NCBI GenBank assembly: GCA_030710605.1
Contig: CP092879.1
Span: 41,349,008 to 41,413,007 of the forward strand
DNA from: Cordylochernes scorpioides
Lineage: Eukaryota > Arthropoda > Arachnida > Pseudoscorpiones > Chernetidae
Length of the DNA: 64,000 nucleotides
Direction: 5' to 3'
Part shown: positions 13,819-63,574 of the stretch, piece by piece
Layout of the letters: every line of letters begins with the position of its first letter
Position numbering within the stretch: the stretch's first letter is position 1
The notes under the pieces: model-generated
Databases searched by the model: none
What the model was told of the DNA's origin: nothing
The model's input: the letters and a program-made list of their open reading frames with translations, nothing else
Made by a program: the position numbers and the translations under genes

Positions 13819-14037
13819 TTTCTAAGGCAGAAATGATAAAGCACAATTTGGATTATAGATTATAGATACAAGAAAATAAGACCTAATCCAAATAATTTAA
13901 TAGTGTGTGACGTTTCGGTAACACCATTGTTACCATCATCCGACAAAAGAAAAATCATTTTTCAATGATGTTGCCGAAACGTCACACCATATTAAATTAT
14001 TTGGATTAGGTCTTATTTTCTTGTTTCTAAGGCGGAA
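13819..14037. mobile_element. Hammerhead-bearing foldback retroposon, copy 1, with 14-bp TSD
   Basis: A 191-bp element (13833-14023) lies between near-identical 14-bp direct repeats, TTTCTAAGGCAGAA (13819-13832) and TTTCTAAGGCGGAA (14024-14037). It is an inverted repeat whose arms carry TAATCCAAATAATTTAAT and its complement, and it shares both ends (ATGATAAAGCACAATTTGG / AAGAAAATAAGACC) with copy 2 at 63381-63560 in the opposite orientation. A target duplication of this length suggests retroposition rather than cut-and-paste transposition. Confidence 0.8.
13903..13948 (-). ncRNA. Hammerhead ribozyme-like motif (mutated core)
   Basis: Minus strand reads TTTTGT, CGGATGA, a 7-bp stem (GGTAACA...TGTTACC), then GAAACGTC and ACACAC. 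This is the hammerhead order: stem I, CUGANGA, stem II, GAAA, stem III, cleavage-site C, stem I. Core position U4 is G here, so this copy is probably inactive. Stem III would be only the self-complementary ACGT, which can pair between two molecules. A partial opposed copy (GAAACGTCACAC, plus strand) is at 13975-13987. Confidence 0.7.
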
Positions 14038-16811: not shown

Positions 16812-17050
16812 TTAATAAAAAGGAATCTCCTTATCTTGTAACTTAAAGTTTCTGATGATTTGCACCATCTATCGGAATAAATATCAATTATTCGTTGATT
16901 TTTAATTATTTCAGAATTGGCCAAATATCCTTTCTTGATTAATCAAGATTTGGCCAATTCTGAAATAATTAAAAATCAACGAATAGTTGATATTTATTCC
17001 GATAGATGGCCTAAACCATCAATAACTTTCAGTTCCACGATAAGGAGATG
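16812..17050. mobile_element. FB-C foldback element (full)
   Basis: Near-perfect inverted repeat centred near 16947. Left arm ATCTATCGGAATAAATATCA ... ATTTCAGAATTGGCCAAAT, loop CTTGATTAATCAAG, right arm complementary. The outermost arms are AAGGAATCTCCTTATC and GATAAGGAGATG. Partial relatives lie near 19690, 24965, 32345, 40545, 41628, 42960 and 54665. Confidence 0.85.
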
Positions 17051-17449
17051 TCTTTATATTAAACAAAGAACTGTTTAAGCAACCCATTTAAAGAAAACAT
17101 GGAGGAATGAAGAGTTGACTCATCCGTGATGAATCCTCTTTGCAGTTTCGCCTATCTAATAATCTAGGCGTTGCTGGGTTACTCAAAATTCACGGCTTTA
17201 TTCCATGCTTGAAGTTCCTCACCATTGTTGTTGATGAAATGGTATTTCTTATAAATTAAACATAAAGCGAAGAAGCGTTCCAGCTATAACTATCTCTATA
17301 TAAAAGTAAACTATTTAACTTTTTACAAATGAAACCACTTTCTACTATTCTTATTTCTCATCTATGATGAATCTTTACCATAAATATGGCCAGTTTAATC
17401 GACCATAATATTGCATTGGGTTATATTTTCTGCTTATATATTCCGTATT
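17051..17449. other. No feature identified
   Basis: AT-rich, no open frame or repeat match noticed. Confidence 0.4.
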
Positions 17450-17825
17450 TATAACTCCGCCTTTGCCGGTCCCAAATCCGGATGAAAAAGGGGGAGCAGT
17501 AACAAGCTCACTAAAAATCTGGACTCAGCTGGCCCGGCTGATAGTACCCTGTAAGGGCTCCTGATCCAGGGATACAGGATGAGCAGCGTTTGTACTCCAT
17601 ATTAGGAGCTGCTGCACATGGCGTCTGTTCCTCATGTCAGAGGCGGCCATTTCTTTTGGAGATAAGTCGGCCTGCCACTGAGTAGTGATCCCAGTCTTAA
17701 TGGCAAAGGCAGATGCATTCTACTTCACCCAATCATAATGGTTGTCAAATCTCTTTTTCAAAAGTGTAAAACTTTACAAGCTTGACACCCTAATATGATT
17801 GAGTGGAGATAAGAAAGAAGAAGGT
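17450..17825 (-). repeat. Dispersed ~300-bp repeat, copy 1
   Basis: CTCCGCCTTTGCCGGTC ... GGCCCGGCTGATAGTACCC ... GAGATAAGAAAGAAGAAG, also at 56735-57045 (roughly 85% alike). It is GC-richer than its surroundings. On the minus strand a short frame starting ATGGCCGCCTCTGACATG is open for about 45 codons in this copy but disrupted in the other. It may be the 5' end of a non-LTR element; no domain is visible. Confidence 0.6.
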
Positions 17826-19844: not shown

Positions 19845-20160
19845 ATACAGTATAATGCGGCTTATGATTGTAAAACTACGTTGACAAGTTTTACCGCAAA
19901 TGCTTCTTTTGAACGAAAAATCGTAATTTATTTTAAGGAGAAATAACGACTATTTCTATCCTTAGGGATGAAGTATGAAAGGATGAATTGTGAAGAGTAA
20001 TGATGAACGAAAAAATAAATAAATCATTATTCTTCACAATTCATCCTTTCATATTTTATCCCTAAGGATAGAAATAATCGTTATTTCTCCTTAAAATATA
20101 TTACGATTTTTCGTTCAAAAGAAAAATTTGCGGTAAAATTTGTCTAACGTCGTTTTATAA
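19845..20160. mobile_element. Pal-T foldback without tRNA-like module
   Basis: Starts ATAATGCGGCTTATGATTG. Left arm TACCGCAAATGCTTCTTTTG ... AGGAGAAATAACGACTATTT ... GAATTGTGAAGAGTAATGAT; the right arm is its reverse complement, ending CGTTTTATAA. The two arms meet at a short AT-rich loop near 20025, exactly where the related element at 50288-50725 carries tRNA-like sequence. Confidence 0.88.
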
Positions 20161-56020: not shown

Positions 56021-56730
56021 TTTAAAGAGAACAAAATATAACCAGAATCGTTAAATTAGTATAATAAACTATCTTGTTCTCATTGTGCTGAAATTACCTA
56101 CGAAAATTGGTTGGGATATTCTTGATTACAGTTTGTAGGCATATTTAGAGAAGAAGGTGTGCTATAAAAGATATCATAATTTGGATCAATTGAAATCAGC
56201 ATTGGTGAGAGCAATGAAAGAAATACCCTTATAAAAGGTGCGTGCCGCCATAGATCAGTGACCCGAACGTTTGAGATCCTGTGTCAAAAATAAGGGAGGA
56301 CATTTTGAATGATTGTATATATTTAAAATATATGTCCTATTGGCTAATAAAATATGTATTTATATTCCATTAGTTTTTGTTCTTAATCATTTAATTTATA
56401 AAATTATTTGTAACATAATTCGTGGCTAGACTATGTATATTGCCGATATTAGAATAAGACGGTGAAATTATTTTTTTAAACCATCGTTTCTGATTAGAAA
56501 GATAAAAATTATAACGCAAATTGGTCCTAAAATACATTTCTCTAATTTATTTATTAAAAACCCTTTTTAATCATCCATAGTACTATACCAAATATTATAC
56601 TAAAATTTTCAATATTCTACAGATTTTTCAAGATTCTGTAGATATTTTCTTATTAACTTCTCTTTAATTATTATTATTTAATTTTGATCTTTCGAATTTG
56701 TATCTTCTAATTAATTTATTTACAAAGCTA
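56021..56730. other. No feature identified
   Basis: AT-rich interval. Confidence 0.4.
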
Positions 56731-56734
56731 ACTA

Positions 56735-57045
56735 ACTCCGCCTTTGCCGGTCACAAGCCCGGATGAAAAAGGAGGAGGGGGAGCAGTAACAAGCTTGCTA
56801 AAAAACCTGGGCTCAGCTGGCCCGGCTGATAGTACCCTGTAAGGGCTCCTAATCCAGGGATACAGGATGAGCAGTGTTTGTACTTCGTGTTAGGAGCGGT
56901 TGCACATGGCGTCTGTTCCTTATGACAGAGGTGGCCATTTCTTTTTGAGCTGAGTCGGCCTGCCACTGAGTAGTGCTCCCAATCTTAATGACAAAGGCAG
57001 AAGCTTTCTACTTCACTCAGTGTGGAGATAAGAAAGAAGAAGACA
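56735..57045 (-). repeat. Dispersed ~300-bp repeat, copy 2
   Basis: CTCCGCCTTTGCCGGTCACA ... CTGATAGTACCCTGTAAGGG ... GGAGATAAGAAAGAAGAAG; homologous to 17450-17825. A 71-codon minus-strand frame (56751-56966) is in a different register from the frame open in copy 1, so neither is convincing as coding. Confidence 0.65.
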
Positions 57046-60969: not shown

Positions 60970-61140
60970 CATTATAAAGGACTGCGGCGTATGATTATAA
61001 AGCAATACTTAAAGTTTCACCGCATAAGTTTCTCTTTTTTTTTGTGAAAAATCAATATTTATAAATATTGATTTTTCACAAAAAAAAAAAAAGAAACTTA
61101 TGCGGTGAAACTTTAAGTATTGCTTTATAAATATATTAAT
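60970..61140. mobile_element. Pal-T-related perfect hairpin
   Basis: CTGCGGCGTATGATTATAAA then a hairpin: AAAGCAATACTTAAAGTTTC / ACCGCATAAGTTTCTC and an almost perfect reverse complement on the other side of AATATTTATAAATATT. Only the 13- versus 9-base T/A runs differ. The GCGGC(T/G)TATGATT start and ACCGCA..GTTTCT part ally it with the Pal-T family. Very young by arm identity. Confidence 0.88.
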
Positions 61141-61145
61141 CTTAA

Positions 61146-62875
61146 TTAAATGAAGGACAGAAGAGGATGATAAGCTTCTGGAAGCTCTATTTTTCTATTG
61201 ATGCTGTTCAGTTTGTGGGATACTATGGATTCAAAGATAAGTCTTTGGTGTAAGATATGTATGTGCCTGTAATGTATGGTAGGGAATTTGATGTTGAAAG
61301 TGTGGCCTGTGCTCTGCATATGTTGAAAAATGAGGGATTTGGTGTCTTGCCTGGAAATATTACGGTAATGTTCAGTCATCCTGATGGCCACAGATCTACC
61401 CGTCTCATCAACGTAAGTGGCAGAACACTGTCCACATGAGACGGAGTAGACTGCGCCCACAGAACGAAGGGGGTCAGGAGGAGCTGAGGACTTAGTATGA
61501 GGATGACGGAGGGATGAAAGAAGATTGGGGGAATTTTTATATATGGTACGGATGCCATAAGATCTAAGTTTTCTGGCTATATCTACTGAGGAGGGGGAGT
61601 AAGGGAGATAGCACAATGATCTGTAAGTCATGGAAGGATTGGAAGTTGTAGGTGTATAAGTGTATTTATTAATGAACGAGAGCGGAAAAGAAGCTGCGGA
61701 GAGCTGGGTTATGATACGATTTATTTCTGTTATTTTAAAGATGTCTATGGAACAATGGGTGTATATTCTTTTTGTAAGGGTTCTGACAATATTGATTTTA
61801 TGGGAGATAGGACAGTGAGAATTGTAGTGAGTGTAGCAGGGGAGGTATTGTTTTTTATGATAAACTGTAGTGTGAAAAGAGAATGTGGTGCGAATAATTA
61901 AAATATCACGGAATGGGATATAACAAGGTTAGTTTCTGTTTCTAGAGTAAAGGAAATATCCTGATTGTAATTATTAAGGGTTAGTAGTATGAAGCTCTTT
62001 TGACCTTTTTTTGCATATACAGAAGATATCATCTATGTATCTGCGCCAGAATTGAATTTCTGTAGAGAGGGTATGGGTGATCCAATCATCTATTCTAGTC
62101 ATGACTATTTCAGCAATAATGGTATATAGAGGGCTGCCCATTGGGGAGCCCCTGAACTGTCTATAATGGTGATGTAGGAATGTGAATGTGTTCATGCTTA
62201 AGCATATTTTGGTGAGTTGGACTATGATTGTAGAAGTGTGGGTATCGACATTTTGTGATTGAAGGAAATGATTCAAGCTATCTGTGATCAGTTCATGGGG
62301 AAGGCAGAGGTAGAGGGAGGTGACGTCGAAGGAACACATAGTGAAGGAAGGATCAGGTTTAAGAGCTGTTAATCCATTAATAAAGTGAGGGGTGCTGTTA
62401 ATTGAAAGGGTATTATTGTAATTGGTTAATAAAGGGGAGAGGAAGCTGGAAAGATATTTAGCTAGAGGATAAGCGGGCGATAAGTGATAGGCTATGATGG
62501 GACGGATAGGTACTTCTGGTTTATGTACCTTAGGGAGGCCGTATATATAGGCTGAACTATGGAGGTTAGAGGTAAATGAGATATAATCTTCAGGTGATAG
62601 TTTTTAAATTTTTTGAGTCGGAGAAGTGAGGTTTTGAATTGCTTGACAACAGAGAGGCTGATTTGGTCTGTGATGGGTGAGAAAGTGGTGTCATCGCTAA
62701 GTAAATTATGCATTTTTGAAATATAACTATCCTGATTCAAGATAACCGTATTAGCACCCTTGTCTAACTTAGTGATAACTATTGATTTAAGAAGTTTGAG
62801 TTTTTTGAGTGTGATGGTGTTTTTAAGATGGTTAGAGAGAGGTAGAAAGGGCTTAGATAGATTCTTAGCTACCAT
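61146..62875 (-). pseudogene. PLE polyprotein (reverse transcriptase + GIY-YIG), frame-shifted
   Basis: 62875-62492 encodes the N-terminal region with KLDKGANTVILNQDSYISKM, typical of PLEs. A frame change near 62500-62540 leads to YGLPKVHKPEVPIRPI. 62339-61974 holds RT motif A (FDVTSLY), RGSPMGSPL and the catalytic YIDD. A frame change near 61900-61975 restores RDILIIRTTFSFHTTVYHKK and HYNSHCPISHKINIVRTLTK (thumb). 61631-61146 gives the endonuclease: GAVYSVSCGQC, YVDETGR, RMTEH. The normally conserved Gly of the Y-[IV]-G motif is Asp here. Two or more frame shifts and the altered endonuclease motif mark it as inactive. PLEs prime on nicked DNA and copy their RNA there; the endonuclease sets target choice. 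Confidence 0.9.
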
Positions 62876-62880
62876 TCTTA
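61146..62880 (-). mobile_element. Penelope-like retroelement, broken
   Basis: Encodes, in minus orientation, an N-terminal domain, reverse transcriptase and GIY-YIG endonuclease in the canonical PLE order. Its upstream side (62880-62915) abuts the right half of an FB-A element; its downstream side meets the Pal-T hairpin at 61140. No terminal repeats were recognised, so both ends are probably truncated. Confidence 0.9.
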
Positions 62881-62914
62881 CCTATTCTTCCTCCCTCCCT
62901 TATTTTTCCTTTGC

Positions 62915-63366: not shown

Positions 63367-63574
63367 AGCTCTCATATAGACACAAGAAAATAAGACCTAA
63401 TAATTTAATAGTGTGTGACGTTTCGGGAAAAGCATTGTCACCCTCATCAGACAAAAGAATAATGGTTAACTAAACTATTATTAACTAAACTATTAAATTA
63501 TTTGGATTAGTTCTTATTTTCTTGTGTCTGTAATCTATAATCCAAATTGTGCTTTATCATAGCTCTCATATAGA
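63367..63574. mobile_element. Hammerhead-bearing foldback retroposon, copy 2, with 14-bp TSD
   Basis: The 180-bp element (63381-63560) is bracketed by perfect 14-bp repeats AGCTCTCATATAGA (63367-63380, 63561-63574). It begins CACAAGAAAATAAGACC and ends CAAATTGTGCTTTATCAT, with arms TAATAATTTAATAG/CTATTAAATTATT and AAGAAAATAAG/CTTATTTTCTTG. An AACTAAACTATTATTAACT direct repeat lies in the middle. Copy 1 (13833-14023) has the same ends, size class and TSD length. Confidence 0.87.
63411..63456 (-). ncRNA. Hammerhead ribozyme motif, intact core
   Basis: Minus strand: TTTTGT, CTGATGA, stem II region GGGTGACAATGCTTTTCCC (weakly paired: GGG/CCC plus mismatches), GAAACGTC, ACACAC. All conserved core bases (CUGAUGA, GAA, A15.1-U16.1, C17) are present. 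Stem I pairs TGT/ACA next to the core. Stem III is ACGT, self-complementary. Poor stem II makes monomer activity doubtful. Confidence 0.68.

Follow-up and report, generated by a model that had tools for sequence, protein, structure and literature searches.

A foldback insert flanked by direct repeats

The window, which is the whole 64,000-nt stretch of Cordylochernes scorpioides DNA analysed here, contains at 63381-63560 a 180-bp foldback insert bounded on both sides by perfect 14-bp direct repeats, and the minus strand of this insert carries CUGAUGA...GAAACGUC. These features, together with the near-palindromic arms, had been described in a first-pass annotation and were all confirmed on the sequence. 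Read along the minus strand, the insert consists of the reverse complement of a tail, an antisense arm that ends before the hammerhead, a centre, and a sense arm in which the lead TTATTCTTTTGT is followed by CTGATGAGGGTGACAATGCTTTTCCCGAAACGTC (63450-63417) and then by a spacer ending in CTTGTG (Table 1). From the hammerhead rule, the cut is predicted to fall between 63417 and 63416. The arm sequence beyond it (63381-63416) has a 6-nt deletion relative to most of 40 aligned copies, and the subfamily-A arms seen share the lead as their 5' limit.

Table 1. Features of the two family members found in the window
Feature	Position	Strand	Basis
Second family member in the window	13834-14028		copy search, alignment, arm profile
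Left target-site duplication AGCTCTCATATAGA	63367-63380		same letters as 63561-63574
Tail-less arm, 3' of the predicted cut (ACACAC...CTTGTG), ending at putative reverse transcription (RT) start site 1	63381-63416	-	letters; 40-copy alignment
Hammerhead core of the Penelope-like element (PLE) type (stem-III-less), CUGAUGA...GAAACGUC	63417-63450	-	motif search, letters
5' lead TTATTCTTTTGT (stem I 5' strand)	63451-63462	-	copy alignment, letters
Centre joint of the two arms, varying from copy to copy	63463-63486		copy alignment, letters
Second arm, same module reversed, truncated before the hammerhead	63487-63529	+	profile positions 40-109, with tail
31-nt tail GTAATCTATAATCCAAATTGTGCTTTATCAT, between putative RT start sites 1 and 2	63530-63560	+	alignment, arm profile, letters
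Right target-site duplication AGCTCTCATATAGA	63561-63574		same letters as 63367-63380

A single exact match to CTGATGA-N4..30-GAAAC is present in the window, against a mean of 0.29 in shuffled windows (at least one match in 27 of 100), and this match is by itself not beyond chance. The element is judged real because of its family, with 79-100% identity, common termini and target repeats. Folded as a whole, the 180-nt strand forms a long hairpin (z -3.7), as expected of an inverted repeat. The insert has a 95% identical duplicate locus on C17, in which the same insert is present, and the joined flanks match only these two loci, both filled.

The second family member (13834-14028) has a damaged core, CGGATGA, and its tail-bearing arm is the complete one. 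The earlier annotation mentioned a 'copy 1' without giving its place, and this insert is the other member in the window. The same insert with the same flanks is found at L049:9006-9197, ~140 kb apart on C17, which points to a segmental duplication of the region.

Other repeats were noted in the window. Type-P1 twister-like motifs are located at 56729-56783 (+) and 17448-17502 (+), and also in L025 and L032, with 35-47 bits, below the Rfam gathering score. A twister regular expression matched 10 places in the loci examined and four in a 264-kb sample (the window, the adjoining 100 kb, 50 kb of C5 and 50 kb of C9), with none in the reversed control. The sequence after each of these matches is nearly the same, GGAGCAGTAACA..., which suggests that an abundant repeat carries a twister at its 5' end. 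Long near-perfect palindromes at 61002-61123, 16874-17000 and 19958-20068 scored below the gathering score of miRNA models and are perhaps MITE-type foldback repeats; the Rfam miRNA matches, being palindromes, were set aside by eye as foldback artefacts.

Copies, subfamilies and target sites

A search of the genome (2.62 Gb in 24 contigs) seeded with the window copy gave 40 scored places with 79-100% identity, out of 2630 first-look candidates. Five of these are duplication partners and were left out of the counts, leaving 35 copies; all 35 copies used for target repeats and most of the arm pairs analysed below stem from this seeded search. The 40 aligned copies have common termini, TGATAAAGCACAATTTGGATTATAGATTATA at one end and, in most, CTTGTAT at the opposite one. 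Two subfamilies can be recognized: A, mostly with CTGATGA and AAGAAAATAAG, and B, mostly with CTGAAGA, ACAAGGTAATAAG and a longer lead. The core letter that differs between them is position 7 in the hammerhead numbering, the free one. Subfamily-B arms extend further upstream in some copies (L053, L066 and L068). A DNA query taken from L053 matched mostly another inserted repeat. At L053:4680-5055 lies a repeat flanked by a 15-bp target duplication, TGTTTTAAATAGTTA; 33 more places match the start of this repeat with 88-100% identity.

Abundance was assessed with an arm profile of 110 positions, built from 96 arm fragments, which gave 26 arm matches in the 264-kb sample and none in reversed sequence. 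The matches were read as 15 inserts, or 14 after dropping the duplicate of the window's copy 1. Their spread is very uneven, with 10 inserts in the C5 stretch and none in the C9 stretch, and the naive extrapolation of ~1.4e5 copies genome-wide is an order of magnitude only.

Exact target repeats of at least 10 bases flank 17 of the 35 loci, compared with none of 1190 mismatched flank pairs, and range from 10 to 17 bp where detected. They support the proposal of the first-pass annotation that the inserts arose by retroposition and duplicated long target stretches. When the comparison was repeated for 52 pairs from all loci examined and the ends were called more crudely, repeats of 10 or more bases were present in 17 of 52 pairs and in 10 of 2652 mismatched pairs, the latter perhaps arising from nested and neighbouring windows. 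The AT content of the duplications is 73%, against a background of 66%. Four inserts are nested within the lead of subfamily-B copies, which is split at TGCTGTGGTA in L064 and L031 and at ATCTGCTAT in L026 and L068; since the uninterrupted targets of all four are present in other copies, these serve as empty sites and support target repeats 11-14 bp long, the 14-bp one in L031 with one mismatch. The earlier claim that the insert interrupts a continuous sequence concerns the window locus, for which the search with the joined flanks gave filled sites only; uninterrupted targets come from the nested inserts.

Head-to-head arms and the tail

Each insert consists of two head-to-head copies of one 90-122-nt module, comprising a short lead, a stem-III-less hammerhead, a spacer and an optional 31-nt tail. 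After six duplicate or overlapping loci were left out, 123 arms could be sorted into 53 antisense-then-sense pairs, 17 unpaired arms, seven sense-then-antisense neighbours and four same-strand neighbours within 150 bp. Among the 53 head-to-head pairs, 45 had one arm with a tail and one without, two had two tails, none had no tail at all and six were unclassified. With the duplicate L049 dropped, one tail per pair was found in 44 of 46 classifiable pairs (six unclassified), which under independent 50:50 choice, a crude null, has P = 1.5e-11. The same arrangement was seen in all seven classifiable pairs out of nine in the 264-kb sample, again without the duplicate, and in five of six classifiable pairs in L063-L068, L065 being the one with two tails. 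The truncated arm can be either of the two, and the arms are separately truncated at the centre.

This asymmetry is a signature described for PLEs, whose reverse transcription begins at a pair of neighbouring sites on the template. In the Anolis PLE, reverse transcription is reported to start at two adjacent internal template sites bounding a 'tail', and both target strands are cut and extended (PMC11167929). Penelope elements of Adineta are described with pseudo-LTRs in inverted orientation, with 8-10 bp target repeats in the examples given and with a 31-bp tail that one of the inverted ends may carry (PMC3846280). The foldback form with a hammerhead in the arm had been called unusual; it is less so than assumed, as inverted pseudo-LTRs, one of them bearing a 31-bp tail, had already been described for PLEs (PMC3846280).

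Two other origins for the inverted arms were weighed against the same pairs. A foldback or MITE-type DNA transposon carrying the motif by chance would account for inverted repeats, small size and high copy number; yet the target repeats vary between 10 and 17 bp and are not fixed as for a DNA transposon, the ends are asymmetric in that only one bears the 31-nt tail, and each arm is truncated on its own at the centre, so that we consider this origin scarcely credible. Self-priming, in which one cDNA folds back and copies itself into an inverted arm, has been proposed for Penelope palindromes (PMC3846280), and arms from the same insert resemble each other somewhat more than they do other arms, with a median divergence of 10.4% within inserts against 15.0% between them and with the own partner arm among the closest tenth in 16 of 49 cases. 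Because arms of the same insert are only moderately closer, one shared template for both is not proven. Self-priming predicts outer ends set by the first arm, whereas in 44 of 46 pairs the second arm ends 31 nt earlier, at another fixed site, and the longer arm can be either one; this origin appears improbable.

The first-pass annotation had also called the element retrozyme-like, which implies a circular-RNA cycle where hammerheads would cut tandem transcripts into units that close into circles and give rise to new copies. Animal retrozymes, as reported (PMC7229834), likewise have type I hammerheads, long target repeats and high copy number and are non-coding, and low GC fits them too; furthermore, the subfamily-B locus L063 (C6:23.64 Mb) has head-to-tail units of 143-145 bp with hammerheads, in tandems of 2 and 2.5 units. 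However, the retrozymes described there are head-to-tail tandems with mostly canonical hammerheads, while the inserts studied here are head-to-head with a minimal hammerhead. The tail-to-lead joint of subfamily B was found at only 21 places in 2.62 Gb (at most one mismatch; none in a backwards control), at least two of which (L031 and L064) are nested insertions, and three pairs of which lie one unit apart; a looser pattern gave none in the 264-kb sample. Set beside the 53 head-to-head pairs and the four same-strand neighbours within 150 bp, the subfamily-B tandem joint appears too infrequent to account for most of the spread. With head-to-tail joints rare in subfamily B and the hammerhead of the stem-III-less kind, the retrozyme-like label is not supported, and a circular-RNA cycle is in our judgement slightly less probable even than self-priming.

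The hammerhead motif

CUGANGA, GAAAC and GUC are all kept in 20 of the 35 non-duplicate copies, and the same core letters are intact in 23 of 59 arms that reach the lead, one of the 59 giving no match. An additional U separates the core from stem II in most copies; the window copy and L030 have G at this place. The length of stem II is 3 bp in the window copy and 7 bp in L006. The description of an intact hammerhead core stands for the letters. By the refuting test that the first-pass annotation had set, covariance-model searches, the hammerhead is a candidate only: Rfam hammerhead models gave no match at E<=10 to the window or to any of 16 family loci, out of 40, that had been selected because their core letters are intact. 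These models expect stem III, which according to a review PLE hammerheads are without; the review covers dimer hammerheads as well as helix-III-less PLE hammerheads (PMC6155905). The hammerhead was not the minimum-energy fold in any of the four RNAs folded. No two-sided change was seen at the nine pairs in either 41 or 46 sequences, and pairing was kept in 94.9% of cells over the 46 sequences (94.6% over the 41), with shuffles giving equal values. As GAAACGUC leaves stem III without a loop, cutting would be expected only in a dimer, through the self-complementary ACGU, or in a protein-held fold. The core is conserved in its letters, and the ribozyme activity is putative.

Coding PLE copies in the genome

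A PLE coding remnant in three frames occupies 61146-62881 (-) of the window and is about 89% identical to many mutually similar copies, which form head-to-head pairs and 2.8-kb tandems. Its GIY-YIG part gave 147 scored matches among 54,248 candidates; 69 of these, picked by eye, have a near neighbour (<=7 kb), with 26 minus-then-plus, no plus-then-minus and 12 same-strand arrangements. In L061, the two arms share 1447 bp at 99.9% identity and join near 2216/2217, one arm being ~370 bp longer, and in L062 a 2.8-kb tandem is joined head to head with another arm. The end of L062 lies 31 nt beyond the left end of L061, and the right end of L061 stops 9-13 nt into this stretch (both by eye), so PLE start points are not only two.

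The layout of these coding copies is similar to that of the miniature inserts. The 3' end of the PLE in L061 and L062 has a hammerhead-like but degenerate motif and a tail different from that of the miniature inserts, and the arm profile gave no match to the window-type PLE. In the one PLE family examined, the window type, no coding PLE sharing the miniature tail or hammerhead was found, and no open reading frame with reverse transcriptase and GIY-YIG was found in the miniature element, the examined PLE family having other ends. The window PLE was set aside as the helper, since it has neither tail nor motif in common with the miniature inserts; judged by its sequence, it appears to integrate in the same style, and for the helper role it is a candidate only. 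A comparison of the PLE protein with phage records gave no match.

Whether the inserts form a lineage of their own can be judged against these copies. If they were short copies that an ordinary autonomous PLE had left behind after 5' truncation, and not a miniature lineage apart, longer parents should exist or have existed, and the subfamily-B arms of L053, L066 and L068 that reach further upstream imply just this; in subfamily B, too, the frame from the ATG in the hammerhead is open to the tail (by eye). Against this, the subfamily-A arms seen, which come mostly from a biased sample, end at the same lead, the subfamily-A spacer frame has an in-frame TAG (by eye), and the 264-kb sample contains 14 miniature inserts to one recognisable coding copy of the window PLE type, the only type counted. 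This origin is unlikely, though it carries appreciable weight.

Discussion

The inserts are probably miniature, non-autonomous PLE derivatives made by double-ended target-primed reverse transcription. Tail asymmetry, target repeats and head-to-head layout support the link to PLEs that the first-pass annotation had proposed; its view of a non-coding, miniature element holds as well, and 'works like a PLE' stands better than strict PLE membership. The template RNA would be the short 3' module of a PLE pseudo-LTR, made up of the lead, stem-III-less hammerhead, spacer, site 1, 31-nt tail and site 2. A PLE reverse transcriptase/GIY-YIG endonuclease acting in trans would cut both target strands ~10-17 bp apart, and both free 3' ends would prime cDNA synthesis on the module, which would begin at site 2 for one of them, so that the tail is included, and at site 1 for the other, so that it is left out. 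Head-to-head joining of the two cDNAs, each 5'-truncated at its own point, would then create a foldback whose hammerhead lies close to the centre. We infer the helper in trans, the RNA template, the order of the steps and the ribozyme activity, which, if any, would be that of a dimer or protein-helped.

This arrangement has clear counterparts among Penelope/Poseidon-clade PLEs, in which two RT start sites, inverted pseudo-LTRs, target repeats and AT-rich targets match the miniature inserts, according to accounts of Anolis Poseidon (PMC11167929) and Adineta vaga Pen (PMC3846280) and a general note (PMC8969392). The 31-nt tail has the length reported for one Adineta Penelope (PMC3846280), while the target repeats of 10-17 bp, where detected, are longer than the 8-10 bp of the Adineta cases given there. 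In the Anolis PLE, the hammerhead overlaps the ORF start and is reported to cleave only with the protein present (PMC11167929). In most miniature copies the hammerhead likewise adjoins an ATG, with 28 nt from its A to the cut (by eye). Unlike these PLEs, the miniature inserts are without an ORF and are built solely from the 3' module, present twice in inverted orientation. Penelope elements of heliconiine butterflies are likewise short, non-autonomous and abundant, the accessible text giving neither anatomy nor a ribozyme (PMC6685494). Judged by title and opening abstract lines, none of the papers listed in searches of the open literature describes a hammerhead-bearing miniature foldback PLE. 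Overall, the element seems to be a known type of mobile element in miniature, not a novel class of ribozyme element.

A stronger reading, which we advance tentatively and hold a little short of even confidence, is that PLE integration is obligately two-ended: one RNP would prime both strands, and its two RT subunits would start 31 nt apart, giving a head-to-head pair with one tail. A module of ~120 nt, with a hammerhead and the start sites, would have exploited this to reach perhaps 1e4-1e5 copies and would represent a minimal natural substrate of the PLE enzyme.

PLE transposition is poorly understood, and many short, complete inserts with readable ends constitute a natural record of both priming events. 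They suggest a rule in which one end has the tail and the other does not, and the small module may be all the RNA that the PLE enzyme needs. They also show that an element can be abundant, seldom form tandem copies and still keep the letters of a hammerhead core.
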